Assembly (NCBI RefSeq): GCF_006874645.1
Contig: NZ_CP030082.1
Location: 1,550,001-1,614,000 of the forward strand
DNA from: Bdellovibrio sp. ZAP7
Lineage (GTDB): Bacteria > Bdellovibrionota > Bdellovibrionia > Bdellovibrionales > Bdellovibrionaceae
Reading direction: 5' to 3'
DNA length: 64,000 nt
This document shows positions 28,610 to 51,417 of this stretch, one piece after another; the stretch's first letter is position 1, and every line of letters begins with the position of its first letter. Made by a program: the position numbers and the translations under genes. Below the pieces are notes generated by a model. The model did no database searches. It was not told the DNA's origin and was given only the letters and a program-made list of their open reading frames with translations.

Positions 28610-29002
28610 ATGGCAGCAGACTTTCAGAAGATCAACATTCCAACGATAGAGGACAAAGCCGGTGGCTTCCGCCGTCAGTATCCGCGTCGTGTGATGAAAC
28701 GTAAAGTAGGCGTCCTTTGCGAGGGTTCCTATTTTATCGTGGAATCGGGAGAGATCGGTGAAGGTGGTATGTCGATTATTTCTGAATTCCTGCTCAATGA
28801 AAACGACGAAGTCGTCGTGAGCTTTCAAATCCCTCAGGGGGATTTCGTGTTCCTGCGTGGAGTGGTTCGTTCCACACAAAAAAAACAGGGTGACGCGACG
28901 GTCACCCATGGTCTTAGCTTTAGCAATATTAACTTTGCTACCAAAAGACAAATTCGTGCCTTTGTATCAGCGCGAACTCATTCCTCTTCTCAGGCTGCTT
29001 AA
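28610..29002 (+). CDS. PilZ-domain protein (candidate c-di-GMP receptor)
   Basis: The 130-residue protein has one PilZ domain. The N-terminal c-di-GMP motif RxxxR is present as RRQYPR near residue 21. The second motif, normally [DN]xSxxG, reads EIGEGG, so the Ser is replaced and binding may be weak or altered. Strands VGVLCEGSYFIVESGEI and EVVVSFQIPQGDFVFLRGVV fit the beta-barrel. It is cytosolic with no extra domain. It stands alone, downstream of a palindromic element that could carry its promoter. Confidence 0.83.
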   Translation: MAADFQKINIPTIEDKAGGFRRQYPRRVMKRKVGVLCEGSYFIVESGEIGEGGMSIISEFLLNENDEVVVSFQIPQGDFVFLRGVVRSTQKKQGDATVTHGLSFSNINFATKRQIRAFVSARTHSSSQAA

Positions 29003-36900: not shown

Positions 36901-39024
36901 TTAGTGCTCATTCATGCCGGCTACAGAGTTATCCTGAGGGCATACGTTTTTCAAAGATGAACGGTAGTGACCAACTTCGTCTTCCCAGATTTCACCTTTA
37001 AATTTCCAGTTGAGGCTCTTTTCTTTCGCTACTTTAAGTTCTGGACGTTCTTTTTCGTTCACTTCGCCACCAGCCATTTGATAGCGGATGTGCTCACCAG
37101 CGCCCGAATACAATTCGTACTGAAGAACGTCATTTTGATCCAGAACGCGGTTCAAGTTGGCAACCATGTTTTTATAGTTGTCTTGAAGGGCTTTACCCGC
37201 TTCTACACGAAGCACGTCTTTTTCTTTCTCAATACGTGCGATACCTTGAGTACGCAGGTTTTTGATCGAAGTACGGGCTTTGTTGGCGATGTGGTACTGG
37301 ATTGAATAGCTCAAAAGCTTTTTATCAGCATCAAGGACAGCGGAAGATGGAGCCGCACCTGGCTTCATTTTAGCTTTCGCCGCGACTAAAGCTTTGCTGG
37401 CTTCATTTTTCTTCGTCAGGAAATCTTTTTCCATTTTAATCAATGTGAAAGAGATTTTGTTGAACTTCGTAATCTCGTCTTCATAGTTGTTGATCTGTTT
37501 TTGAACAGATACGAAACCAGGGTGACGAGCCAGTTCCACGATGAAAGCACGTGGCAAGCCATCAACTTCTTTCAAGTCAGAGTTTTTAGCCCAGTTTTTC
37601 ACAGTGTCATAGTAGTCCAAAGATTTCTTGTGGGAAGTTTTATACTCTTCCAATTTCTTTTTCCATGGACCGTATTTGCCACGCATCTCTTCAAGGACTT
37701 GAACACCGTCACCGTATTGGCAAAGATTCAAGTAGCCTACTGTACGAACCACGAAGGATTCCGGGTTGAAGGCATTTTTAAAGAAGTCCGTGTGCAACGA
37801 GAACATGTTACCGGCAGCGCCTTCATAGTCCTCAGACAAGATCTGAGTCCAAGCGCTTTCAGTCATGGCTTGCAACCAAAGCGGGCTGGAACGGTCTACC
37901 TTCAGGTAAGACTGGAACGCCTCTTTGTACATGCTTTTTTGGAACTGGATACGAGCCATAGTGATCGCACCCACGTTTCTGATTTGAGATTTCTTGTCGT
38001 CTTCGGTCGCTTTCAACAATTTCTCGATGTTGATAACAGCTTCGTCAACTTTATTTTGACGATAGTTGAATAGACCTGAAAGCAACAAAGCCTCTGGATA
38101 CTTTTTGGATTTTTCATCGATGTACATCAATGCGTCTTCCATCAGACCCAGATTACCGATTGAAGAGTAGTACTTCGCACGAGTGATTTGGTACTCATCG
38201 TTTTTAGTCACATCAATTTCGTATTTAGCAACCAAAGGGTCGATCAAAGAGATATCAGTCAACTCCAAAACCTTGATTCCTTCAACCAGGGCTTTCGTTG
38301 CTCTTTCTTGCCATTCTTTGTTCTTAGTTTCTTGGGAAACTTTGATCATGTAAGTTCTGAACTCTGTATTCAGACCCATGCCTTTTGCAGTCATCGCATA
38401 GTTGTAAAGAGCTTCTAGACGGTGCTCTTTATCATCCATCAGCTCTGCAAACAGACCCATCGCCAACTCATAGTTCTGTTGGATCTCAAGGAAGATCAAA
38501 GCTTGAAGTAATTTATAATCATTTGGACCCATTTCATCCATTTTCTGCAACGTCACTTGTGGTTCAGTTGTCGATGGATCTTTAACGGGACTCAACATTT
38601 TAACATCCGGGATTTTTGTAAATGCCTCGGGAGTTGTTAAAACTTTTGGAGGATTGACCACAGCAGTGTAAGGCGGAACCTTAATCTGCATTGGATCAAT
38701 GGAAGGAGATTTTTTGATTTCCTTCACCACCAATTCACGAGAAGCGGGCAGGCGGAGAGGGCTCAACGGAATTGCTTCCACTTGGCGCTCTAAGCCGATA
38801 TTCAGCTCTGGAATGGCTTTGACTTTGAAAGTTTCCGTTTTCCCTTTAACTACTTTCTTTTGATAGATTTCGTAGGTGGGAACGAGGCTGGATTTCACGC
38901 GCAGATTTGCAGCTGCGGGTGCACCCTGATTTTTCACGTTCAGCGCCTTGTGCTGAACTTCCTGTGCGAAAGCGGCACTGCACAGAAGCGGCAGTACCAT
39001 CATTGCTTTCATTGGCTTTTTCAT
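36901..39024 (-). CDS. Large secreted helical-repeat (TPR-like) protein of the gliding-type operon
   Basis: The 707-residue protein has a signal peptide ending AAFAQ, a proline-rich, beta-like first 150 residues, and then TPR-like paired helices from about 170 to 480 (for example LEALYNYAMTAKGMG, AITMARIQFQKSMYKEAFQSYLKV). Helical coiled segments follow to the C-terminus. Two cysteines near the end (CPQD region) and few elsewhere. Large TPR proteins in the Myxococcus Glt complex span the periplasm, so a similar scaffold role is inferred from context only. It lies 35 bp after the outer-membrane barrel gene. Confidence 0.88.
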   Translation of the reverse strand: MKKPMKAMMVLPLLCSAAFAQEVQHKALNVKNQGAPAAANLRVKSSLVPTYEIYQKKVVKGKTETFKVKAIPELNIGLERQVEAIPLSPLRLPASRELVVKEIKKSPSIDPMQIKVPPYTAVVNPPKVLTTPEAFTKIPDVKMLSPVKDPSTTEPQVTLQKMDEMGPNDYKLLQALIFLEIQQNYELAMGLFAELMDDKEHRLEALYNYAMTAKGMGLNTEFRTYMIKVSQETKNKEWQERATKALVEGIKVLELTDISLIDPLVAKYEIDVTKNDEYQITRAKYYSSIGNLGLMEDALMYIDEKSKKYPEALLLSGLFNYRQNKVDEAVINIEKLLKATEDDKKSQIRNVGAITMARIQFQKSMYKEAFQSYLKVDRSSPLWLQAMTESAWTQILSEDYEGAAGNMFSLHTDFFKNAFNPESFVVRTVGYLNLCQYGDGVQVLEEMRGKYGPWKKKLEEYKTSHKKSLDYYDTVKNWAKNSDLKEVDGLPRAFIVELARHPGFVSVQKQINNYEDEITKFNKISFTLIKMEKDFLTKKNEASKALVAAKAKMKPGAAPSSAVLDADKKLLSYSIQYHIANKARTSIKNLRTQGIARIEKEKDVLRVEAGKALQDNYKNMVANLNRVLDQNDVLQYELYSGAGEHIRYQMAGGEVNEKERPELKVAKEKSLNWKFKGEIWEDEVGHYRSSLKNVCPQDNSVAGMNEH

Positions 39025-39059: not shown

Positions 39060-39812
39060 TTAATGCCAATAAGTTAAACCGAACATCAACGACGTATCGT
39101 TAACCATTTTATCGCCCAATACGCGCGGGCTGCTTACTGTGTATGGCTTTTGCGATTCATTAGCCCATGTGTTGATCAAGTCTGCGCGCAACGCAAAGTG
39201 CTCAGAGAAAAAGATCTGCTGGAAAACACCCAGTTTGTAACCGATAGAAGATTTGGCTTCATTACCAGTTGATCTTGCGATCTCATAATTTACGTTACCC
39301 AGACCAACCGATACACCCATGTCGAAATAGATGATCGCTTTATCCAGAGCAGACATTTTTGCATAGAACGGAACCCAGATCGCAGAAGCGAAATACGATG
39401 ATTTCAAGATATTGTGATCGGGCATCGCACCGTTCTGAGTATGGAACTGTTCTGTACTGTCATTTTCAGTCAGGTTCGCGTTGTTGTAAGAAACTTCCAC
39501 GCCCCAGCGTTCATTGAAGAAGTAACCTACGTCAGCACCCATGATCGTACCTTCACTGAAGGCGTCGTTCACTGGAATACCAGCGCGAGCCGTCAAATAA
39601 AAGCGCTCTGCTTTTACATAACGACGGTTTTGTACCACGCCAAAGTCTTCGTCCTTAGCAGCCCAGTACTTGTTTTCTAGTTTTTTGATGTCAAGCTTGT
39701 CGCTGCCACGTTGCTCTGGTTGTGCAGATGGTGCAGGCGCTGGCTGTTTTGCTGTTTGTGCAAAAGCTTGAGCTGTCATCAAGATGAAAATTAATAGTGA
39801 TTTCTTAAACAT
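39060..39812 (-). CDS. Outer-membrane beta-barrel protein of the gliding-type operon
   Basis: The 250-residue protein has a signal peptide ending QAFAQ and a Pro/Ala/Gln linker. A conserved KLENKYWAAKDEDF segment leads into alternating strands such as RFYLTARAGIPVN, ADVGYFFNERWGVEVSYN, SSIGYKLGVFQQIFFSEHFALRADLI (split at SSIGYKLGVFQ), ending SLMFGLTYWH. The aromatic C-terminus and strand spacing fit an eight-stranded outer-membrane barrel of a type common in myxobacteria and Bdellovibrio. It could anchor the complex to the outer membrane, as GltA/GltB-like barrels do. Confidence 0.88.
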   Translation of the reverse strand: MFKKSLLIFILMTAQAFAQTAKQPAPAPSAQPEQRGSDKLDIKKLENKYWAAKDEDFGVVQNRRYVKAERFYLTARAGIPVNDAFSEGTIMGADVGYFFNERWGVEVSYNNANLTENDSTEQFHTQNGAMPDHNILKSSYFASAIWVPFYAKMSALDKAIIYFDMGVSVGLGNVNYEIARSTGNEAKSSIGYKLGVFQQIFFSEHFALRADLINTWANESQKPYTVSSPRVLGDKMVNDTSLMFGLTYWH

Positions 39813-39826
39813 TTCGGTCCCCCGTC

Positions 39827-41281
39827 CTAATTGGTACTTTTAAACAAAAATGGATATGTAACTAGCACGCGCGTTCCGCCTTGTGGGGCAGGGAACTTCC
39901 ATGCGGCTACACGATTCAAAATACAGCCTTCAACAGTTGAGTTCTTCAAAGTTGTATCGCCAATGATCTGTTGTTCAACTTGACCAGTACCACCGATCGT
40001 AAATTTAACAGCGACCTTACCGAACAAATCCGGATTCGCACTCAATTGTCTTTCGTAACAGTAAAGAATCTGACCCAATTTGGATTTGATATACTGAGCG
40101 ATAACCTCACGGTCCAAACCACCCGTAATCTCAGATTCCTCTTCGATCAAACCAACACCGGCATTACCAGTGCCACCAGCGGCCATACCACCCATGCCGG
40201 AAGCGTTTTTACCGCCGCCTTTACCATTTGTGGAAATCAACACGCCACTCCCGTTACCTGCAGCACCCCAGTCACGACCAGAGCGTTCGATGTTGCCTAC
40301 AGCTGCCAAGCCACGACCGGAAGGACCGGAGCCAGCTTTCACACCTTGAGCAAACATAACGTTCGCACTTTTCGCACCTTGTGCTGATACCTTACCAATC
40401 AATTTAGAAATACGACCGTCAGAGATCGATTTCATCATGTTGGCAAGTTTGCCTCCGCCACCCGCAGCAGGCGTATCATTTTTCGGAGAAGCGGCAGCCG
40501 GAGCTGCAGCAACTTGCTGCTGTTTAGCCGCTTCGGCCTTTTTACGCTTTGGCTTAATTTCTGTTTTAACAATGATCTTTTGCGCGACTTTAGGCTGTTC
40601 CACTGCAATCGAGTGAATATCTGTCTTAGGTCCAAACAATGCGGCTGTCACAAACAGGGCAGCGGCACCCAACATCAAGATCACGCCTTTTTTGGAGTCT
40701 TCATCCACCAGGGAAGAAGTGTTGAAGCGACCCATAGCCGCTGCATCGTCCATAGAAAGCGTTCTTTGTGATACTTCGACATCACCCAACAACTGACGAT
40801 GCCATTCCTGAGAAGGCACGCAAGCCACTTTGGTGTTACTGAAATCAGGTTTAAACGCTTTGTTCAAAGGCTGGATTTTAGTCTGTAGCACTCGACCATG
40901 TTGTTTCACCATGAACAATTGGAATTTCTTACCAACTGATTCATCGCGGCCGGCTTTATCCAAGCGGGCATAAAGGTCGACATCTTTTTTGATCGGATCG
41001 AATTGCAATGTGCATTCATCCAAAGTTACAGTCGTGTCCTTGTTCAAGGCGATGGCCGGGGATTGTTTCAATCCGCTGGAGGTAGCCATATCCATATCAA
41101 CATAGAACCATTGACCGTTACGATATTCAAAAACACCTTGAATACCTTTTGTCTTTGGAGAAATGGAAATAATATCCGCTAGGCGGGAAGAACCAAACGT
41201 TTGAGTTTCATTCGTTGGTCTCAATTTCCAGGTTTTTGCAGTCCCATCTTTTAGAGACTGACGTACAATCAACGTGAGCAT
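39827..41281 (-). CDS. FHA-like / AgmX-PglI C-terminal (TonB-like) domain protein
   Basis: The 484-residue protein likely spans the inner membrane and periplasm. Residues about 1-110 look like an FHA fold (RPTNETQTFGSSRLADI gives the GSS-R phospho-Thr-binding pattern). A membrane helix lies near 205-225 (VILMLGAAALFVTAALFGP). A Lys/Ala/Gly-rich periplasmic linker runs to about 380. The last 100 residues are the AgmX/PglI C-terminal domain: ILYCYERQL, FGKVAVKFTIGGTGQV, VEGCILNRVAAWKFPAP and VTYPFLF, with a likely Cys-Cys pair. In Myxococcus the matching GltG/GltJ proteins link the AglRQS motor to outer-membrane parts. Here FHA stands in place of the GltJ zinc/GYF region. Confidence 0.9.
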   Translation of the reverse strand: MLTLIVRQSLKDGTAKTWKLRPTNETQTFGSSRLADIISISPKTKGIQGVFEYRNGQWFYVDMDMATSSGLKQSPAIALNKDTTVTLDECTLQFDPIKKDVDLYARLDKAGRDESVGKKFQLFMVKQHGRVLQTKIQPLNKAFKPDFSNTKVACVPSQEWHRQLLGDVEVSQRTLSMDDAAAMGRFNTSSLVDEDSKKGVILMLGAAALFVTAALFGPKTDIHSIAVEQPKVAQKIIVKTEIKPKRKKAEAAKQQQVAAAPAAASPKNDTPAAGGGGKLANMMKSISDGRISKLIGKVSAQGAKSANVMFAQGVKAGSGPSGRGLAAVGNIERSGRDWGAAGNGSGVLISTNGKGGGKNASGMGGMAAGGTGNAGVGLIEEESEITGGLDREVIAQYIKSKLGQILYCYERQLSANPDLFGKVAVKFTIGGTGQVEQQIIGDTTLKNSTVEGCILNRVAAWKFPAPQGGTRVLVTYPFLFKSTN

Positions 41282-41306: not shown

Positions 41307-41555
41307 TTAGTTATTCAAATACAGCGCTGATTCCCTGATGCGGCCGTCCATATCTTTTTGTACGTCATACAACGGCATAAATTTAATACCGCGTTTTTGT
41401 ACTAGATATGCGCCATCAGGGTTACGAACTGTACCCTTGAGGTTCATGTCACCGAAATTTACTTCCTGGACTTTACGAACTGTTCTTTGCTTAGCAAAGG
41501 CAGTCGCTGACCCCAGAAGAAGAAAAACTGTCATCAATTGGATGAAAGCTTTCAC
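41307..41555 (-). CDS. Small secreted protein of the gliding-type operon
   Basis: The 82-residue protein has a signal peptide (VKAFIQLMTVFLLLGSATAFA). The mature part is short and basic, RTVRKVQEVNFGDMNLKG followed by a strand-like tail. I chose GTG 41555 because GGAGGG lies 5 nt before it; the longer reading frame upstream runs into the TPR gene. No family recognised. Confidence 0.78.
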   Translation of the reverse strand: MKAFIQLMTVFLLLGSATAFAKQRTVRKVQEVNFGDMNLKGTVRNPDGAYLVQKRGIKFMPLYDVQKDMDGRIRESALYLNN

Positions 41556-41569
41556 TTGTACCCTCCATA

Positions 41570-44500
41570 CTACAAGTCTCCCGAAGTTACGTGCTGACCG
41601 ACTTTGTTTTGATTTTTGATAAATTGAATTTTCTTGCTTAACCATTCACGCAAATCTGCTTGCGCGCTGCTGGCTTTGAATGCCTTTTCATAGGAATCCA
41701 ACGCTAGCGTGGGGCTTCCTTTGAAAGTCTCAAGGATATGAGCTTGTTCCAGAAGGTAGTCGATATTGTCTTTCTTATTCGCAGTGATCAAATCTTTGAT
41801 CATTGCCAGAGCTTTATCGACCTGACCCTTTTGAGCATATGATTCACTCAAAAGCGTTCCCACATTTAAAGTATACAACTGATCTTTTTGGAGTGTAGAA
41901 AATTTTTCGACAGCGCGAGAGAAATCTCCCTCTGAGAAAGCCTTCACACCAGCGAAAGTTTCCATTTCTGTCGAAGGCATTTGCATGTCCAAAACCTTCT
42001 CAAAATATTGCATCGCGGATTTGATGCCATCTTCTTTATAAGTCAAACGAGCCTTTTGATATACAAAAGGAGACGCTTCAGGTTGAGCCTTCAAAGCAGC
42101 ATCAATCAACCACATCGCTTTGTCGCTATAGCCTTTACCTTCAGCTCCGACGCTCGCATAGAAAAGACCAAGGGCTCTGGTTTCTTTGCTCTTAGCGAGT
42201 TCCAAGCCCAGTTTTTCCACGATATCGAACTGTCTAGAACCATAACAATTTCCAGCAACTTCGAAAGTGTTTACTTTTGAAATATCACCAGTCATTACAG
42301 CAGTTTTGTTGCATGTCTTATTAGGACGAATCTCATAACGAGACACCTTACCAATCATCATATCAGCTGATGCCGGAAGGAAAACACTCAATTTTTCTGG
42401 AGCAGGGAACTGAGCAATCGGTGTGATCGTTTTGTCAGCGCCAATGCTTACATAAGAGCGTGTTGTCGTCGCCGATTGACCAACAGTTGCCGCCAAAGCT
42501 TTTAGCTTCGCGTCGTTGTCGTTCTTTTTATCCTGGATAGGATTCGTCAACTTCGCAAGCTCTCCACGCAATTGCTTTTGGTCATCAGGACTCAAAGAAG
42601 CAGGAAGTGGCATTGAAGTTAAACTATCAATGTAGTTGCCATACACACGGTCAATACCGCGCAAAGCTTCCAACTGTTGATAAGGGTCTTTGGACATTTT
42701 CAAAGCAGTCACATAAGCCGTTTGCGCTTTATCAAGTTTTTCAGTTTTGATCGCAAGAACTGTCGCGAATTTCTCTTCACGAGCTTTTACGCTTTGGGCG
42801 ATGAATTCTTTTTCCAAAACCGCAGCTTGAATCAGACGGGCAGCGGCACGAGTTTCTGCAGGTACAGAACGGCCGTTGGCCTTCATTGAAAGATCAAACG
42901 CTGCAGTCATTTTGCCGGCGTCAAGCAGAGCTTGAGCTTTCTCAATCATCGCTTCTGTCGTGTAAGGTTCGATACCTTTAGCAGAGATTTGATTCAAAAG
43001 CTTGTCGTACTCTGGAGACTTTTTGTCGTTTTTATAAGAATCAAGAAGCTTACCGTAAATACGCTCTGTCGTTTTGCTGTCTGCTGCTGAAAGGATACCC
43101 ATGTAAGAGGCGCGAGCGTCTTTCACACGTTTTTCCATCACATAGATATCAGCTGCCGCTTCCAGGTATTGGTTGCGACCTTTTTTATCCAATTCAGCCA
43201 CTTTCGCCAACGTATCAGCGGCTTTGGCCGTCTGACCGATGTCAGCATAGGCTTTGGCAGAGTCTTTCAAAGCATCCAGGTTCTTTTTATCGTCTGGATA
43301 TTTTTGCACGTATTTCAAAGACATCTCGGCAGCGTCATAGACTTTGCCTTCAGTATAAAGAATACCAATTGCCTGCCACAAAGCATCCTGAGAAAGTTTG
43401 GAGTTGTCATGCTCTTTAGCGTAAGCAATCAACTTTTGAGCTGCTTGGTCTTTGTTTCCAGTTTTTGCAAACTCCTGAATTTCAGTGAAGTGAGCTTCTT
43501 CCTGGATCTTGTTCATGTTCTTTTTACGAGAAGCATCAGTTGTCGAATTCGCGATTTGTTTCGAGAACTCTTTGATGCCCACGAAGTCTTTTTTGATATT
43601 AAGCATATCCAAAACCAGGTCTTCTGATTTTCTGCGGATATCGTCGTTGCCTTTCATTGTCGTCAAAGGCTTCAACCATTTTTCAGCTTCAGGGTAGTTG
43701 TTTTCTTCGTAGGCGATGTGACCGATTTTGAATTTAACCGCAATAGCGTATTTCCCAGTAGGGTGTTTCGCCAAATAGTTTGCAGCCAATTCTTTACGCT
43801 CAGATTCCTTCAAAGGTTCTGATTTTTTCTCGATAGATTTTTCTTTGGAGAATAGGGCAGCGTAGTTCGCGTCATGGCGAAGGATATCGTCAGTGGATTT
43901 GTCACCCACGATTTTATACTGTGTCGAAGCCTCATCGAATTTACCCAGTTGGAAAAGAAGTTCTGCATAAGCAAAACGTGTTTTCAAATCCGGTTTCGCA
44001 GGATCTTCGATATCAAGCATCAGTTTAAACAATTGTTGAGTCAGGTTCGAGAACTCAGTGTTTTGTTTGTTCTTAAGCCAGATCTCCCACCATTTTTTAG
44101 CCATATCCAGGCTGGTGCGGCGGAAACCTTCATCACAGGAAGTGATCACAGCGTCTTTTTTCTGTTCTTTTTTCCAAGAGGAATCAGCACGGCAAAGATC
44201 TGAAGCAAATTGCATGTGCTTCAAGACCAAATCACGTTTTTTCAACGTCTCGTTGGCTTCAACCAGCAAAAGGTGGGATTTAACCACGTCGGGACCAGTT
44301 GGGTGTTTGTCGATGTATTCTTCCAGGAAAATGTTCATTTCTTTTTGACGACTGTGCGATTCGTAAAGTTTCGCAAGGTTCATCATAGACTCACCCAACT
44401 CATCAGTTGTCGTAATGTCTTCAAAGAAAGAATAAAGTTTGTTTGCAGGGTAGGAGTCACCAATAAATATCGTCAAATCGCGCAAAGCCTCTTTGCGTAG

Positions 44501-45280
44501 ATTGTGACGGTTGGTTGGGACTTCACCATCTTGAAGTGGTGGATTGTTTTTTACAACCTGAACCAGTTTCTTGATACCGCATTCGCTATCGCGCATGTTG
44601 TAGCAAGCCCAAGCGGCTTTATACATACCGTAAGAATAAACACGGCTGTTCGGAAATTTTTCAAGTCTTTCAAATTGCTCCAGGGCCGCAGCAAATTTGC
44701 CTTGTTCATAAAGCAATTCACCCAAAGCCAAAGTTCCATCTGGAACCAGTGGTGATTTTGGGAAGTTCGTCAAAAGACGTTGGTAAAGTTCGTTCGAACC
44801 TTTCATTTGACCCACTTGTTGGTGAGCAAAGGCGTTGTTGAACAGAACCTCGTCCATGAAACGGAATCTTGGGAAATCCGCTTCGATTTTGGAATAGATC
44901 TTCATTGCGCGCTTAACTGACTCCGAGCCCTTTTCATTTGGAATCGGGAACGGGGAGAGTTTCATCATCGGATTGTCACGGTTCAAGTCAAAGAAACGAC
45001 CGGACTTAGAACGGCGCATGTAAAGCTCCGCAAGGCGGTACCATAAGTCCGCCTCATTCGAAGAGCCTTTTTGTTTTTTGATAACCGCTTGAAGGGAGTC
45101 GATCGCTTTATTTTCCGAGCGAGTGATCATCAACTCGGAACGAAGAGCTTTCTTTTCGTTCTCACCTTCGTCATTAGACATACGGACTTCTGGGATAAGT
45201 CCTTTTTCATTCTTTTCTGCAAAGCACAACAACGAGAATAAATGTATTGCCAGAAGTAACGTTATAGTTTGCAGCTTCAT
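41570..45280 (-). CDS. 1236-residue TPR-repeat secreted protein of the gliding-type operon
   Basis: The signal peptide ends CFAEK. The rest is a long superhelix of TPR-like units, for example DLWYRLAELYMRRSKSG, VLFNNAFAHQQVGQMKGSNELYQRLL, RFAYAELLFQLGKFDEASTQYKIV (each with W/Y-A-G signatures), continuing to the C-terminus. A region of about 940-1010 is less regular and has the cysteines NKTCNKT and GNCYG. Large TPR proteins GltD/GltE/GltI form the periplasmic part of the Myxococcus gliding complex. It starts 3 bp after the second ExbD gene. Confidence 0.92.
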   Translation of the reverse strand: MKLQTITLLLAIHLFSLLCFAEKNEKGLIPEVRMSNDEGENEKKALRSELMITRSENKAIDSLQAVIKKQKGSSNEADLWYRLAELYMRRSKSGRFFDLNRDNPMMKLSPFPIPNEKGSESVKRAMKIYSKIEADFPRFRFMDEVLFNNAFAHQQVGQMKGSNELYQRLLTNFPKSPLVPDGTLALGELLYEQGKFAAALEQFERLEKFPNSRVYSYGMYKAAWACYNMRDSECGIKKLVQVVKNNPPLQDGEVPTNRHNLRKEALRDLTIFIGDSYPANKLYSFFEDITTTDELGESMMNLAKLYESHSRQKEMNIFLEEYIDKHPTGPDVVKSHLLLVEANETLKKRDLVLKHMQFASDLCRADSSWKKEQKKDAVITSCDEGFRRTSLDMAKKWWEIWLKNKQNTEFSNLTQQLFKLMLDIEDPAKPDLKTRFAYAELLFQLGKFDEASTQYKIVGDKSTDDILRHDANYAALFSKEKSIEKKSEPLKESERKELAANYLAKHPTGKYAIAVKFKIGHIAYEENNYPEAEKWLKPLTTMKGNDDIRRKSEDLVLDMLNIKKDFVGIKEFSKQIANSTTDASRKKNMNKIQEEAHFTEIQEFAKTGNKDQAAQKLIAYAKEHDNSKLSQDALWQAIGILYTEGKVYDAAEMSLKYVQKYPDDKKNLDALKDSAKAYADIGQTAKAADTLAKVAELDKKGRNQYLEAAADIYVMEKRVKDARASYMGILSAADSKTTERIYGKLLDSYKNDKKSPEYDKLLNQISAKGIEPYTTEAMIEKAQALLDAGKMTAAFDLSMKANGRSVPAETRAAARLIQAAVLEKEFIAQSVKAREEKFATVLAIKTEKLDKAQTAYVTALKMSKDPYQQLEALRGIDRVYGNYIDSLTSMPLPASLSPDDQKQLRGELAKLTNPIQDKKNDNDAKLKALAATVGQSATTTRSYVSIGADKTITPIAQFPAPEKLSVFLPASADMMIGKVSRYEIRPNKTCNKTAVMTGDISKVNTFEVAGNCYGSRQFDIVEKLGLELAKSKETRALGLFYASVGAEGKGYSDKAMWLIDAALKAQPEASPFVYQKARLTYKEDGIKSAMQYFEKVLDMQMPSTEMETFAGVKAFSEGDFSRAVEKFSTLQKDQLYTLNVGTLLSESYAQKGQVDKALAMIKDLITANKKDNIDYLLEQAHILETFKGSPTLALDSYEKAFKASSAQADLREWLSKKIQFIKNQNKVGQHVTSGDL

Positions 45281-45283
45281 AGT

Positions 45284-45781
45284 TTATTCTCCGACCATAG
45301 TCACCAATTTCAACTGAGGAAAGCCTGCCATAGATGCTGTGTACATCACTTTGCGAAGTGTCGCATAAGGAAGGTCTTTATCAGCCTGTAAAAGAATTTT
45401 TCCTTCTTTTACCCACTTTTCCTTTTCGGTTGAATTCTTGGCCATGTGGTCCAGTTTTTCGAATAATGGTTTAATAAAGTTCGCATCAGTGGACTCAAGG
45501 TCCTGGGCTAAGAACTCGTCGTTCTTAACGTCTGCGATTTTATCTTTGTCGATCTTCAAAGCATCCTTCGACAAAGAAATCTTAACAGCTTCCACTGGAT
45601 TCGCAGTTGTTGCCGAAGTCGGCAAACGCAAGTTGGATTCTGGTAAAATCTCGACTTGGGAAGTTGAATAGCTTTGTAATAGGAACACTAGCAAAATCGT
45701 AAACATGTCGGTCATCGAAGTGATGTTCAAACCGAATGTCGATTTCTGTTTTGGAAGCTCATACGGACGACGGCGTGCCAT
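45284..45781 (-). CDS. ExbD/TolR-like motor subunit, Asp present
   Basis: The 165-residue protein has a short basic cytosolic start, one membrane helix (about 20-42) and a periplasmic domain. Asp25 in ITSMTDMFTILLVFLL sits at the ExbD/TolR proton-path position. The C-terminal LLQADKDLPYATLRKVMYTASMAGFPQLKLV matches the family fold (split at TLRKVMYTA). It should pair with the TolQ/AglR-like protein to convert proton flow into movement, as AglS/AglQ do. It lies 3 bp from its neighbours on each side. Confidence 0.93.
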   Translation of the reverse strand: MARRRPYELPKQKSTFGLNITSMTDMFTILLVFLLQSYSTSQVEILPESNLRLPTSATTANPVEAVKISLSKDALKIDKDKIADVKNDEFLAQDLESTDANFIKPLFEKLDHMAKNSTEKEKWVKEGKILLQADKDLPYATLRKVMYTASMAGFPQLKLVTMVGE

Positions 45782-45784
45782 AAA

Positions 45785-46330
45785 CTAGCCCTCCATCATG
45801 TTCGAGAAGATAACTTCAGGGAACATATACTTGGTTTCAACTGTCTTCCCTTGCTTCGTATCGAAGACAGGGAAGGTCACTGTCTTATCGTGTGCCTGGC
45901 GCGCTTCATCCATTACTTTGACGATGTCATTGTATGGAACTTTTGCTTCAGGGTTTAATTCAATTTTGAAAACTTCAGGATTGGCCTTTTTGACTTCAAC
46001 CAATTTTTGGTGAAGGGAAGGCAAATCATAAGATCCGTCTTTCAACGGGACCGTTTCTGTGTTTTCTTTACCAGCTTTAGTCACGACGATTGTATATCCC
46101 ACTTTTGGGTCTACTTCGATAGCGACGACAGTTGGCGTTTTATCTTGATCATTACGCTGAATAGCTTCGGCTACGACTTGGGGAAGTTCAGTTTCGATCA
46201 CCATCATTTGCACAAAGGCAGACGATAACAACAGAACTGGAACCAACTTTACCATCACGGCAAGCAGTGGTGCTAAGTCCAACTCGAACTCACTGTTATG
46301 ATTAATTTTAATCTTTTTTCCGCGTCTCAT
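45785..46330 (-). CDS. ExbD/TolR-like motor subunit lacking the proton-path Asp
   Basis: The 181-residue protein has a basic start, a membrane helix (about 20-42) and a periplasmic ExbD-type domain ending in the family's late KVPYNDIVKVMDEARQA. In the helix LDLAPLLAVMVKLVPVLL, the residue at the conserved Asp position is Ala24, while the paralogue next door keeps Asp. Lys28 lies inside the helix. This subunit may be structural while the other carries protons. I chose ATG 46330; an upstream TTG at 46342 would add four residues. Confidence 0.9.
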   Translation of the reverse strand: MRRGKKIKINHNSEFELDLAPLLAVMVKLVPVLLLSSAFVQMMVIETELPQVVAEAIQRNDQDKTPTVVAIEVDPKVGYTIVVTKAGKENTETVPLKDGSYDLPSLHQKLVEVKKANPEVFKIELNPEAKVPYNDIVKVMDEARQAHDKTVTFPVFDTKQGKTVETKYMFPEVIFSNMMEG

Positions 46331-46387
46331 ATACCCACCCAATAAGAATTAAAGATCCATCTTTGACTTTAGGCCCGAAGGCTTCAA

Positions 46388-47095
46388 TTAAGAAGCCTTA
46401 CCTGGAGCAGATGGAGGAGTTACTACCGGAGCAGCAACGTGGTCTGGGAATACGTTTTGGCGAGACAAGTTTGGAATGTGTGCGCTTGTCAACAACTCTG
46501 CCAACTTACCGCATTTTTCCATCATCTCTTCCAGCAATTCATTTTGACGTGAAGTTAGGACAGAGAAGAACACCATCGCAGGGATCGCAACCGCAAGACC
46601 CAACGCTGTTGTATACATGGATACGGAGATACCTTGTGCCAACAACTGTTGTTTCATTGCAGGGTCAGCTGATGCTACCGCTTGGAACGAAAGGATAAGA
46701 CCGTGGATCGTACCCAAAAGACCCATCAATGTAGCAACGTTGGCTAGCATGGAAAGGTAGTGTAGACGTTTCGTGTACAATGGAACGTTTTCAGCCATTG
46801 CGATATCGTGTGCTTGGAAGATTGTGTCGTCATCACGATCGGCTTTTTCAAGGATCGTTTTGAAAGCTGCCGCAAGAGGCTTCTTTTCAAGTTGCGCACA
46901 AAGAAGCAAAGCTTCATCTAATTTTTTAGCTAGAACTAGAGTTTGGATTTTACCCATGAACTCGTCCACATTCATGCCGTACTCTTTATAGAGCATTTTC
47001 GCACGTTCTGCGACAAGTACTAATGAACCGATACCAGTAAGAAGAATTAACCAGCCTACGACGCCAGATTCATTCATGAACTTTAAGAATGCCAT
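46388..47095 (-). CDS. TolQ/ExbB/AglR-like proton channel subunit
   Basis: The 235-residue protein has three membrane helices: about 12-32, then a pair at about 120-145 and 165-190. The MotA/TolQ/ExbB signature is clear: LHYLSMLANVATLMGLLGTIHGLI and QGISVSMYTTALGLAVAIPAMV (split at LGLLGT and ALGLAVAIP). In Myxococcus the equivalent AglR joins AglQ and AglS in the gliding motor. I chose ATG 47095, with AAGGGGG before it; the longer frame begins inside the GYF-PilZ gene, which it overlaps by 26 bp. Confidence 0.94.
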   Translation of the reverse strand: MAFLKFMNESGVVGWLILLTGIGSLVLVAERAKMLYKEYGMNVDEFMGKIQTLVLAKKLDEALLLCAQLEKKPLAAAFKTILEKADRDDDTIFQAHDIAMAENVPLYTKRLHYLSMLANVATLMGLLGTIHGLILSFQAVASADPAMKQQLLAQGISVSMYTTALGLAVAIPAMVFFSVLTSRQNELLEEMMEKCGKLAELLTSAHIPNLSRQNVFPDHVAAPVVTPPSAPGKAS

Positions 47096-47690
47096 TTGTT
47101 TCCCCCTTGGAACCGCCACCGCGAGCCCATTTAGTTAATTGAACCGAACCAGCTTCTGGCACTTGGAGGAAACGAACAGCATAGTGCAAGCCGGATTTCA
47201 CGTTAAGTCTTTGTTTCGAGTAATTCTTTCGGACGATTTCGCATAGAACATTAAATTCTACAGGATTTACATCCGAACTTCTGAAATGAAGCATAATTTT
47301 TTGACCTAAGTAGAGGAGGGGATCGTTCAACAGAACTAAAGCCCCGTTCTCACTTACGGACAAAGTGTGACCATCAAAAAATGAGTGATCGTTGTGCGCG
47401 TAGATTGGAGTTTTCAAATCTCTACGCGGAAATTTTCTTTCAATGAAAGCGCCGGACAAGTGATCCTTTGTTTGGATCAAACGCGCCAAGCGGTCTTTCG
47501 AGAATTCTGGAAGCTCGCCAACGAGTGTCCAGTTTTCAAGATGCGGAGCCCAAGCATAGTTATAATCTTGAAGCTCAGCGTTTTGGATCATTGAGATCAT
47601 GGATCTGTATTCGTAGGGACCATATTTCATGTCCCCGCGAAGTATGTACCATTGCTCAAGATTTGCTGCTGCAGATTGTTCCCCACCCAT
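47070..47690 (-). CDS. GYF-PilZ fusion: predicted c-di-GMP sensor of the gliding-type motor
   Basis: The 206-residue cytosolic protein has an N-terminal GYF_2 domain (about 13-63: WYILRGDMKYGPYEY, then YAWAPHLENWTLV) and a C-terminal PilZ domain (about 83-195). Both c-di-GMP motifs are visible: RxxxR in RKFPRRD and the [DN]xSxxG-type turn in LSVSENG, where the first position is Ser. GYF domains bind proline-rich peptides; GltJ of Myxococcus carries one. It overlaps the motor gene by 26 bp, so it is made with the motor. I infer that it couples c-di-GMP level to motor assembly. Confidence 0.88.
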   Translation of the reverse strand: MGGEQSAAANLEQWYILRGDMKYGPYEYRSMISMIQNAELQDYNYAWAPHLENWTLVGELPEFSKDRLARLIQTKDHLSGAFIERKFPRRDLKTPIYAHNDHSFFDGHTLSVSENGALVLLNDPLLYLGQKIMLHFRSSDVNPVEFNVLCEIVRKNYSKQRLNVKSGLHYAVRFLQVPEAGSVQLTKWARGGGSKGETNGILKVHE

Positions 47691-47705: not shown

Positions 47706-48746
47706 TTAGATCTTGATCGATTTTGGATCGAAGTTGATTTTCACGTTAGAGTTCGCATTCGGTACTGAGCTGCCATGGAAAGTGATTGTCAAAGTTGCGG
47801 CATCATACGTCCAACCGTTAACGGAGTCTTGTGGAACCACTGTGCCATCAACTGTTACTACGATCGATTCTGGAATCGGCTCGCGAGTCAGTTTGAAAGA
47901 GCTCGACAACTGGATGATGGAATCAGAGATCAACTCAAGAGTTGTACCGAAGTTCGAGCACAAGGAACCGTTGATACCACCAGTTTTGTTAGTGATTTCA
48001 TGGTAACGAGTCGGGAACTTGTCAGTTTTCAATTGATCGCGGCAAGCAGTGTCTTGAATCGCGATATTGGAAACAGAATAGTTTCTGCCGCCAGTTGTAC
48101 CACCAGTATAAGCATCCAAGAAGTCGATATAGTTTTGTACTGGGTACAATTTACTGTTCGTGTAGCTTTCGCTGAAAGTACTTACTGACTGAGAGAAGTC
48201 CTCTTCGTCAGATACGATGATAATTGCTAGAGTTGCATCTGGACGGCGGAAACCTGCATTGAACGGGTCATTCAGGATCTGTTTGATACTTTCAAATGCA
48301 CGTTCGTCACCGTTACCATTGATACCTTGTTTTACGTTAGTAATGAAGACGTTGCTTAAGTTAGGAGTGTTCTTATCCATAACAAACACGCCCGAGTGCG
48401 TGGAATCAACGCCATCTCTAAGTCTTGCTTTAAGTGAGTTCGCATTGAACTGTTTTTCCCAAGCATCAGTTGTACCCACAGCCATGTGGAAGTCACTGTT
48501 GTTTTGGTTAAAGCGAGCGATGAAGGACTGGAAGTTTGCAGCCAAGTTGTCTTGAGATGTTTTCATGGAACCAGAGTTGTCGATCACCCAAAGGATATCG
48601 ATTTTCTTTGGAACGTAGACAGCTTCCTGCTTATACGAATCTGAATCAGCGAGGATTGAGTATGTTCCTCCACTTTTTCCGCAACCAGCTAGCATTGTTA
48701 GCGCTGAAGCAACTACTACTGATTTGCGAGCGATTTGATTGATCAT
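47706..48746 (-). CDS. von Willebrand factor A-domain lipoprotein, first gene of the gliding-type operon
   Basis: The 346-residue protein has a lipoprotein signal with lipobox MLAGC at about residue 22. A vWA domain follows with the metal-ion-dependent adhesion motif DNSGSM (near 58), then DGVDSTHSGVF and IIIVSDEEDF, the later MIDAS positions. The last 70 residues are beta-rich (PESIVVTVDGTVVPQ, TLTITFHGSS). Lipoproteins of this type bind protein partners through a metal ion. I chose ATG 48746 because AGGAGGG is spaced 9 nt before it; an upstream ATG at 48773 has none. Confidence 0.9.
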   Translation of the reverse strand: MINQIARKSVVVASALTMLAGCGKSGGTYSILADSDSYKQEAVYVPKKIDILWVIDNSGSMKTSQDNLAANFQSFIARFNQNNSDFHMAVGTTDAWEKQFNANSLKARLRDGVDSTHSGVFVMDKNTPNLSNVFITNVKQGINGNGDERAFESIKQILNDPFNAGFRRPDATLAIIIVSDEEDFSQSVSTFSESYTNSKLYPVQNYIDFLDAYTGGTTGGRNYSVSNIAIQDTACRDQLKTDKFPTRYHEITNKTGGINGSLCSNFGTTLELISDSIIQLSSSFKLTREPIPESIVVTVDGTVVPQDSVNGWTYDAATLTITFHGSSVPNANSNVKINFDPKSIKI

Positions 48747-48799
48747 ACGGTTTGCCCTCCTGAGCCCCACCATGTTCGTGATGGATTCAGTTTCGTTTA

Positions 48800-48828: not shown

Positions 48829-49312
48829 CCTAGTGATTTTATTTTTTTATTCAAAAACGGTTTCACTATGAGACGCGGTAAAGTATTGAAATCATAGATG
48901 GTGAGTTCAAACACCAAGGTAAAAATAATTTTCAGTCGTCAACATTTTGGACGTTTTACCGGAAATATTTCTTGAGAACTCGGGGTAAGTCTGTGTTTTT
49001 TTAGGAAGTTCCTCGAATATGACGAACTTTTTGACGAATTTCACTTACATTTCTTGAGACCGTTTGCTGGGAACGGGGAGGGGTTTTCGCTGAAAACGGT
49101 CGACTTTGTTTTCACCCGTACGGAATGTGGGCGTAAATTTTTGTGGAAGTGGAAAGGCTTTCTGCAGATGTTCAGATTATTGATGTGGAGTCTTTGTGAT
49201 GTTTGGAAAAAGAGTTCGACAGAAATTGTATTTGGGATTTTTTGTCTAATGGGATCATTATATTTTATTTTGCGGGTTTTATTTTTTTGCAGTTTGTGAG
49301 ATGGGGACTTAC

Positions 49313-49432
49313 ATTAACTCATTAACTCATTAACTCATTAACTCATTAACTCATTAACTCATTAACTCATTAACTCATTAACTCATTAACTCATTAACTC
49401 ATTAACTCATTAACTCATTAACTCATTAACTC
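49313..49432. repeat. Tandem repeat: 15 copies of ATTAACTC
   Basis: An exact 8-bp unit is repeated 15 times without any mismatch over 120 bp. The array is not a multiple of three per unit, so it could not encode a constant peptide in one frame. It lies in intergenic DNA. Confidence 0.97.
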
Positions 49433-49505
49433 ACTCTTGGCTCACTAGCTCTATCTTTTCTATTTGTTTATTTTGAATTGCAAGTCTGGCAAATGTCGTT
49501 GAAAG

Positions 49506-49631
49506 ATCCATCATCCATCATCCATCATCCATCATCCATCATCCATCATCCATCATCCATCATCCATCATCCATCATCCATCATCCATCATCCATCATCC
49601 ATCATCCATCATCTATCATCTATCATCTATC
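49506..49631. repeat. Tandem repeat: 15 copies of ATCCATC, then 3 of ATCTATC
   Basis: A 7-bp unit fills 126 bp exactly. The last three units share one C-to-T change, so they probably spread together by slippage. Read as protein it gives a spurious His/Pro/Ser/Ile repeat. Confidence 0.97.
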
Positions 49632-49800
49632 AATCCCGTCGACTGTCAGTACTTTCTATTTTCAATTTGTATTCTTCGATAAAACGGTGTGATGAGTGTA
49701 ATTTGCATTGTTCAGATTTATTAGTTCCCTGAGCTGTATTCTTAGGTTTCATATTTGATATATTTTTTATGTTTAAATCCCTGAGTGCTGAGAGGATTAG

Positions 49801-50050: not shown

Positions 50051-51103
50051 ATGAACAAACTTTCCAAGATGAATAATGATGAACTAGAAGCTAGCTTTAA
50101 AGTGTTTGTAACGAACGAGCGCAAGATTTTGCATATCATTCTTGAGCACGTAAAAGAAATAGATTCACGAAGACTATTCTTGGAGCGAGGGTTTGATTCT
50201 ACATTGAGCTATTTAATTCACACGCACGGCTATAGCAAAACGGCGGCGGAAAAGAGACTGTATGCGGCTCGTTTATTAAGAGACGTACCTGAAATGGCGG
50301 CCAAAGTGGAAGAGGGTAGATTGAATTTGTCCCAGTTGTGCCAGGTTTCAAGCGCTATAAAGCAGAAAGAGCGAGTTCAAAAGTATGATGTGTCATTGGA
50401 GGAGAAAGCTTCTTTGCTTGCGCGGGTTGATGGCAAGAACTGTTGGGATACGCAGAAGGAACTTTCCTCTGCATTGGATTTGCCCTTAAAGCCCACGGAA
50501 AAACAGCTGGTTCAAAAGGATGAATCGGTTCATCTGCAATTGACGCTTTCAAAAGAACAATATGAATTGTTGGTGAAGTCACAAGAGCTTGGATTTCATC
50601 TGCTGCAGCAGAATCGGGATCATTCATTGGCGGGCCTAATCGAAGTTCTTTGCAGTCAGTTCATCAGATTGAAAGAAGTAGGTTCGAAATGTGCTAACTC
50701 AAATGGTGCTAGTTCGAAAGGTGTCGAATCGGCGGCAGGTGGAGTAAGGGATCTGAGGGAAGTTCTTCTGAACAAGCGAGAAGGAAGTGTTGTCGATTGC
50801 AATGGAATTGGGGCTTCAAATAAAGAAGCAATGCAAATCAAAAACACCGAAACGGTGTCTATGGCGAGTCATAATAAAACGATCACGCCGAAAACTCGTC
50901 AATTCGTTTTAATGCGCGATCGCTGCTGCCAGTACGTGGATAAGAGTACCGGTTTGATCTGCGAAAGTAAAATGGGCCTACAAGTGGATCATATTATTCC
51001 GAGGTGGGCGGGCGGAGATAATTCAGAAGAAAATTTGCAAGCGCTCTGTGGTCAACATAATAGACTCCGCTATAGACAACAGGCTGGAGTGGTTATTAGT
51101 TAA
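50051..51103 (+). CDS. HNH endonuclease domain protein
   Basis: The 350-residue protein has a long helical N-terminal part (about 1-210, with a repeated-helix pattern like DUF222-type proteins) and a low-complexity Ser/Gly/Asn linker (215-275). The C-terminal HNH nuclease domain has paired cysteines (CCQYVD, ICESKMG, ALCGQHN), VDHIIPRWAGG and the last His in GQHNRLR. Proteins of this kind occur in many copies in Bdellovibrio genomes; function unknown, with mobile or selfish behaviour suspected. AAAGGAATT precedes ATG 50051. Three tandem repeat arrays surround it, and its linker carries a copy of the CACCGAAACGGTG repeat. Confidence 0.88.
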   Translation: MNKLSKMNNDELEASFKVFVTNERKILHIILEHVKEIDSRRLFLERGFDSTLSYLIHTHGYSKTAAEKRLYAARLLRDVPEMAAKVEEGRLNLSQLCQVSSAIKQKERVQKYDVSLEEKASLLARVDGKNCWDTQKELSSALDLPLKPTEKQLVQKDESVHLQLTLSKEQYELLVKSQELGFHLLQQNRDHSLAGLIEVLCSQFIRLKEVGSKCANSNGASSKGVESAAGGVRDLREVLLNKREGSVVDCNGIGASNKEAMQIKNTETVSMASHNKTITPKTRQFVLMRDRCCQYVDKSTGLICESKMGLQVDHIIPRWAGGDNSEENLQALCGQHNRLRYRQQAGVVIS

Positions 51104-51417
51104 AACTCTAGATAGCGGCGCTCATAGATGGGCGCTATTTTGTGAAATAGAGAATGGGGAAATTGTGTTTGAGAGCCGCAGAGAGTAGTTAGAAGATCGA
51201 AGAAATCGGGAAAAGAAAAAGCGAAAAAGAGAATAGCGAGAATAGAGAATAGAGAATAGAGAATAGAGAATAGAGAATAGAGAATAGAGAATAGAGAATA
51301 GAGAATAGAGAATAGAGAATAGAGAATAGGTGAATAAATAAAAAGAATTAATAGGGAAATAGGAGCGAATAGCGAAAGGTAAGGAGCTTCCTCATATAGA
51401 TTTAGCCCCCAGTAAAA
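51104..51417. other. Gap between HNH gene and mazG
   Basis: These 314 bp hold a small hairpin near 51112-51133 (GATAGCGGCGC and GGGCGCTATTT arms, GCGCC core), the 7-bp tandem repeat at 51238-51328, and purine-rich sequence. No gene is seen. Confidence 0.6.
51238..51328. repeat. Tandem repeat: 13 copies of GAGAATA
   Basis: A 7-bp unit repeats 13 times without mismatch over 91 bp, preceded by one broken copy (GAGAATAGC). It lies between the HNH gene and mazG. Confidence 0.96.

Follow-up and report, generated by a model that had tools for sequence, protein, structure and literature searches.

Does the cyclic-dinucleotide signalling on which Bdellovibrio gliding depends reach the gliding motor itself, and through which protein? 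Bdellovibrio needs gliding to leave exhausted prey on surfaces, and the enzyme DgcA (Bd0367) is known; no receptor was found in the literature searched. The stretch of the Bdellovibrio sp. ZAP7 chromosome analysed here (64,000 nucleotides, hereafter the window) encodes a protein with a GYF_2 and a PilZ domain (hereafter GYF-PilZ) next to a TolQ-like motor gene. Coordinates are those of the window unless a contig is named, and all operon genes, with the domains and motifs inside them, lie on the minus strand.

A GYF-PilZ gene in a Glt-type operon

The operon reads VWA – GYF-PilZ – TolQ – TolR – TolR – TPR – GltF – GltG – OMP – GltC. GYF-PilZ (47070..47690, 206 aa from an ATG start, identified from its open reading frame and Pfam) is followed by a TolQ/AglR-type (MotA_ExbB) motor subunit (46388..47095, 235 aa from its ATG; Pfam E 4.1e-25) and, also by Pfam, by an ExbD/TolR subunit of the AglQ/S type (45785..46342) and a second ExbD/TolR subunit (45284..45781). 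AglR is a MotA homologue, and AglQ and AglS are MotB-type subunits (PMC9120999). Downstream lie a large TPR protein of 1236 aa that is GltD-like by position (41570..45280; domain search and operon order), a small secreted protein that is GltF-like by position (41307..41645; operon order), a GltG-like protein with an AgmX/PglI C-terminal domain (39827..41281; NCBIfam), an outer-membrane beta-barrel protein (39060..39812; domain search) and a GltC-like TPR protein (36901..39024; NCBIfam). The GltG and GltC matches (E 3.8e-38 and 3.7e-32, respectively) did not reach the NCBIfam equivalog cut-offs; the AgmX tail domain of the GltG-like protein scored 108 bits against a cut-off of 40. The first gene of the operon encodes a VWA/MIDAS-like lipoprotein (47706..48773) with weak matches to both Myxococcus CglD and Bdellovibrio MIDAS adhesins, all below cut-offs. 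The TolQ-like motor gene that a preliminary description of this DNA had placed beside GYF-PilZ was thereby confirmed as part of a Glt-type operon, with MotA_ExbB, two ExbD, GltG, GltC and CglD-like matches. We found three Glt-like clusters, including this operon, in the source genome (4.12 Mb, single contig).

The overlap of GYF-PilZ with the motor gene, given earlier as 26 bp, depends on the TolQ start: a GTG start gives 50 bp, and an internal ATG at 47095 gives exactly 26 bp (47070..47095). A strong Shine-Dalgarno sequence, AAGGGGG (47102-47108), lies 6 nt upstream of this ATG, which supports the 26-bp version. The overlap occurs mainly in the genus Bdellovibrio; in other genera the two genes are usually separated by a gap of about 0-200 bp.

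Between the glt operon and MazG, the window carries three near-perfect microsatellite arrays, CATTAACT x15, ATCCATC x18 and AGAGAAT x14 (49312-49433, 49506-49632 and 51228-51329, respectively), flanking a gene for an HNH endonuclease (50051-51103; E 9e-7 for Pfam HNH). In the related loci L080, L083 and L084, MazG is found a short distance upstream of VWA. The HNH/microsatellite stretch looks like an insertion, possibly a phase-variable one. A further PilZ domain protein is encoded elsewhere in the window (28670-28966; 147-aa open frame).

Two domains in one soluble protein

Domain search placed both domains of the preliminary description in the one 206-residue protein, each above its Pfam cut-off. 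The GYF_2 domain (PF14237; residues 14-63, 47502..47651; Pfam, alignment and structure comparison) matched with E 2e-8 and 34.3 bits against a cut-off of 25.8, and the PilZ domain (residues 85-182, 47145..47438; Pfam and AlphaFold model) with E 3.5e-11 and 43.8 bits against 22.5. Given two scores above curated cut-offs and a fusion kept at the same place across the order (see below), the combination is not due to chance. No hydrophobic segment was found along the 206 residues, indicating a soluble protein. An alignment of 36 sequences revealed invariant residues in the GYF half (W14, G24, P25, Q36, W47 and W54) and in the PilZ half (R85, R89, S113 and G116, plus K155, Y170 and F174).

The PilZ fold, whose absence from a structure prediction would have counted against the earlier idea, is present in the AlphaFold model (pLDDT 85, pTM 0.70): its PilZ part matched solved, c-di-GMP-bound PilZ structures (among them MotI/DgrA, MapZ and BcsA) with Z 12-14 and YcgR with Z 11.5-11.7. 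The RxxxR motif, noted before as RKFPRRD, is RKFPR (R85 and R89, 47424..47438), and its arginines are intact in every aligned homologue from the operon. Both were present in 61/61 aligned homologues, 56 of which also had S113, and the three intervening positions are unconstrained (KFP, GAD, EAA, KNR and others), as would be expected if the arginines contacted a ligand, not if they served the fold. The second motif had been described as SxxG-type (VSENG), and S113 and G116 are indeed kept; the canonical (D/N)xSxxG is absent, position 1 being serine (SVSENG, with S111, S113 and G116, 47343..47360). Across homologues the motif reads SxSxxG or ExSxxG with S113 and G116 nearly invariant, position 1 being S, T or N in the GYF-PilZ type and E in the type with two GYF domains (GYF-GYF-PilZ). 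S113 was lost in a few lineages, among them L172 and L174.

From these residues, nucleotide binding by GYF-PilZ is predicted to be likely, and the ligand could be c-di-GMP or, instead, cGAMP. The specificity matters because gliding of B. bacteriovorus HD100 depends on Bd0367 (DgcA), a hybrid GGDEF enzyme that makes cGAMP (PMC9140294).

Conservation of the gene and its place

Homologues of GYF-PilZ at E <= 1e-10 were detected in 96/291 genomes of the phylum. The gene lies directly before TolQ in 26/27 parsable loci of the family, usually after VWA, and 17 loci from other families of the order encode a protein with one or two GYF domains and PilZ within the same operon, while two orphan copies (L111 and L113) still adjoin a VWA gene. 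GYF-PilZ is a standing part of the Glt-type operon across Bdellovibrionales. At one locus (L100, genome G139), TolQ-TolR-TolR is divergent from GYF-GYF-PilZ and GltD, an orientation showing that the module can be split while receptor and motor stay together. The exception among the 27 loci is genome G005, which we take to be B. exovorus JSS: VWA and the whole motor were lost, and GYF-PilZ was kept beside MazG with both domains over the cut-off and the motifs retained (L086), which points to a function of the protein, past or present, outside this motor.

A genome of the same genus, G073, presumably B. bacteriovorus HD100, carries an orthologue with 78% identity at 1.403 Mb in the same arrangement. 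Among four gliding operons, Hobley 2012 noted one with a 'PilZ domain protein', Bd1482, at its 5' end and named this protein as a candidate receptor for DgcA signals (PMC3271064), and bd1480, which is induced on surfaces, has been called aglQ (PMC9140294). Since AglQ/S are MotB-type, AglR is MotA-type and Bd1480 is aglQ, the order PilZ-TolQ-TolR reads Bd1482-Bd1481-Bd1480; the orthologue is thus probably Bd1482, a locus tag derived from position and order. No mutation tying gliding to this GYF-PilZ cluster was found in the literature.

The source genome contains two further GYF-PilZ families, neither of them motor-linked: an orphan GYF-GYF-PilZ (C1:723282-724052) and a B-type GYF-PilZ (C1:2098705-2099361) that is near-universal in the family. 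The B-type protein and an M14 zinc carboxypeptidase (L038, 6693-7382 and 7474-8352; G000:C1:2098693-2100352) are encoded just before a second Glt-like cluster. We rejected this B cluster as a second motor-linked case: the B-type GYF-PilZ and B-type TolQ of HD100 lie far apart, at 1.911 and 0.398 Mb, respectively, which makes their neighbourhood in the source genome a local arrangement. In a distant Bdellovibrionota genome, two adjacent GYF-GYF-PilZ proteins of 356 and 515 aa (L116, 6153-7223 and 7240-8787) have no neighbouring motor. A scan of named genomes with one narrow pattern gave matches essentially only in Bdellovibrionota, a result that, given the narrowness of the pattern, leaves room for GYF-PilZ proteins outside this phylum.

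A candidate ligand for the GYF half

The comparison with the GYF domain of Myxococcus GltJ, first made on the letters alone, held: this domain (7z3c) was the best solved-structure match by sequence profile (E 2.4e-6), and it was also matched in the structure comparison. Further fold matches were GIGYF and the complex of Smy2 with a proline-rich peptide (3fma, Z 6.0). The classical signature GP[YF]xxxx[MV]xxWxxx[GN]YF, as quoted in PMC12034629, is replaced in the window by GPYEYRSMISMIQNAEL, with Trp changed to Met and no GYF triplet, and the family name is therefore no sufficient ground for assuming ligand binding.

A proline-rich FHA/AgmX linker had been suggested as the target of the GYF domain. 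This suggestion found no support here, since the cytoplasmic part of GltG in the same cluster (cluster A) has no conserved proline-rich stretch; long PP runs sit in the paralogous GltG of cluster C, in which no GYF-PilZ was found. The N-termini of the TolR subunits, which we also considered, have no conserved prolines. Within the operon, the best candidate is most likely the C-terminal tail of TolQ, judging from its sequence. TolQ ends in VAAPVVTPPSAPGKAS, with the tail TPPSAPGKAS in the window and PPSAPGKAS-COOH as the candidate ligand (46391..46417; alignment and shuffling test). Tails of different length and sequence in the TolQ alignment share the ending PPx(3-5)[KR]x[S/A/V]-COOH. A PP within the last 20 residues was present in 29/39 genera of the order/class, as against a mean of 6.6 and a maximum of 16 genera when the last 40 residues were shuffled in 20,000 trials, and it also occurred in genera added afterwards (g43, g172, g169 and g171). 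PP tails were found in 0/29 B/D-type TolQ paralogues from the same family and in 0/17 outgroup genera, and most TolQ tails without PP still end Kx[S/A/V].

A genome scan for PPx4K[AV]S-stop revealed no real C-terminus besides that of TolQ; of the two other DNA matches, one encodes W for S and one is antisense to dnaJ. The tail precedes a 45-bp gap to the first TolR, so that no overlapping operon gene forces its sequence, and an origin as a by-product of gene overlap was rejected. In the TolQ model the tail is the end predicted with low confidence (pLDDT about 47-52). In the TolQ/ExbB family the C-terminal tail is cytoplasmic, on the side where the soluble GYF-PilZ would be.

If the tail were the ligand, tail and pocket might be expected to co-vary, and in part they do: lineages that lost the PP tail often have a degenerate GYF pocket, an observation that we count as support. 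With the pocket positions fixed beforehand from the 36-sequence alignment (W14, G24, P25, Q36, W47 and W54), the invariants were intact in 30/30 PP-positive genera and degenerate in 4/12 PP-negative ones (Fisher p 0.004, by genus); two of the four degenerate genera (L172 and L174) are also those without S113. Counted by rows, the association had p 4e-8, with a signature partly chosen after inspection. On a tree of the TolQ core plus the TolRs, five independent pairs were supported, of which three or four agreed and none opposed (sign test p 0.125-0.25). Three genera (L102, L171 and G168, the last corresponding to L112/L318) kept the full pocket signature without PP. The association is not significant on independent pairs, and because the independent events on the tree are too few, we rejected it as proof.

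Discussion

Starting from the two domains, the PilZ fold, the operon position, the invariant RxxxR arginines and a conserved tail motif in partial co-variation with the GYF pocket, we infer a function that joins nucleotide binding, a GYF-tail contact, a direction of switching and a link to gliding. We propose, at roughly even chances, that GYF-PilZ is a cyclic-dinucleotide receptor that would serve as a dedicated clutch or adaptor of the Glt/Agl-type motor by docking on TolQ. The GYF domain would dock on the flexible cytoplasmic C-terminal tail of TolQ/AglR; R85/R89 and S113/G116 of the PilZ domain would bind c-di-GMP (or cGAMP); and nucleotide occupancy would change the contact of the PilZ body with the motor, so that it would be engaged in one state and disengaged in the other. 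The arrangement would most likely be a clutch on TolQ comparable to YcgR or MotI at MotA. The preliminary description suggested that c-di-GMP could gate assembly of the machine, as it may; gating of the motor fits better.

Unlikely, but to be weighed before the other alternatives, is the explanation that GYF-PilZ governs assembly or polar localization of the complex through another partner, such as the cytoplasmic domain of GltG or polarity proteins, with the TolQ tail serving a different partner or stability. In Myxococcus, the GYF domain of GltJ (structure 7z3c) is part of a regulatory module in the cytosol; some lineages retain the GYF invariants without a PP tail, and the Kx[S/A/V] ending outlasts PP in most tails. 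Against this, PP is confined to the TolQs of this operon type, pocket degeneration was seen only in PP-less lineages, and neither GltG nor the TolR N-termini of the cluster offer a conserved proline-rich stretch. We consider it improbable, somewhat more so than the preceding alternative, that the receptor and its docking are as proposed with 3',3'-cGAMP from Bd0367/DgcA as the messenger. The aspartate of DxSxxG touches the nucleotide base in solved structures (PMC7288161), and its replacement among GYF-PilZ homologues by S, T or N, or by E, would relax guanine specificity; Bd0367 makes the molecule and is needed for gliding, and a text search of PMC9140294 revealed no mention of a cGAMP effector or receptor. 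On the other hand, a further PilZ protein of the same genome (L022) carries SxSxxG as well, PilZ domains with an altered second motif, such as PixB, can still bind c-di-GMP (PMC8316039), and cGAMP in HD100 acts at least partly on the transcription of gliding genes (PMC9140294). The fuller version, in which the altered motif would read a mixed dinucleotide and the GYF domain would clip onto the AglR/TolQ tail, so that this receptor for the gliding motor would depart from YcgR in both messenger and docking, seems to us slightly more doubtful still.

Equally doubtful is a PilZ domain that has become a nucleotide-free structural adaptor, having lost binding with the D/N residue and making protein contacts only. 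The second motif is non-canonical, a few lineages have lost S113 too, and some PilZ proteins have lost their binding residues and act as adaptors (PMC7288161); the preservation of R85 and R89 in all 61 homologues, mostly together with S113 and around freely changing residues, speaks for a bound ligand. Least probable, in our judgement, is a general cyclic-dinucleotide adaptor with its main targets elsewhere and a motor neighbourhood of merely historical origin. B. exovorus, which lost the flanking VWA and motor genes and kept GYF-PilZ with its motifs, fits this account, as does the existence of the orphan GYF-GYF-PilZ and B-type proteins, but the operon position is conserved over the order and is accompanied by the TolQ tail association.

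With the proposed clutch on TolQ, what had been a vague PilZ candidate becomes a concrete, testable pair, a 206-residue receptor and a ten-residue motor tail. If the proposal is correct, a chemical signal may switch the gliding motor directly, GYF_2 domains of this group would have a first proposed ligand in the tail, and within the MotA superfamily PilZ brakes would have evolved separately for flagellar motors and for those of envelope gliding.

Comparison with known systems

The closest known counterpart is Bd1482 of HD100, a 78% identical copy in the same operon that was proposed as a receptor for DgcA signals; in the descriptions found in the literature, neither a GYF domain nor a docking motif on TolQ nor operon-wide conservation is mentioned. 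In the literature searched, mostly without subscription papers, we found no relevant paper joining GYF and PilZ and none on the TolQ tail. The PilZ part has thus been on record since 2012, whereas the GYF fusion and the docking motif on TolQ were not found described. An N-terminal GYF-like domain, as in GYF-PilZ, also occurs in the Bd0075-type protein of Bdellovibrio (PMC12034629), which differs in being a TPR protein without PilZ outside the motor operon (likely counterpart at C1:68122).

GltJ (AgmX) of M. xanthus is a membrane protein with a zinc finger and contacts to MglA and AglZ, and it shares with GYF-PilZ the GYF domain and a place in the Glt machine. In contrast to GltJ, GYF-PilZ is soluble and fused to PilZ, with no membrane anchor and no AgmX/PglI C-terminal domain (no NCBIfam match). 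GltJ is absent from Bdellovibrio according to Luciano et al. (PMC3169522), and a GYF-PilZ beside the motor could fill part of its role there.

YcgR and MotI/DgrA are PilZ effectors of a proton-channel motor of the MotA family, MotI acting as a clutch on MotA (PMC7288161), and their PilZ fold aligns with that of GYF-PilZ (Z 11.5-13.6). GYF-PilZ differs from YcgR in carrying GYF_2 before PilZ where YcgR has YcgR-N (Pfam), and it is encoded beside an AglR/TolQ-type envelope motor, whereas the motor of YcgR and MotI is flagellar. Its proposed dock, unlike that of YcgR and MotI, would be a C-terminal tail peptide.
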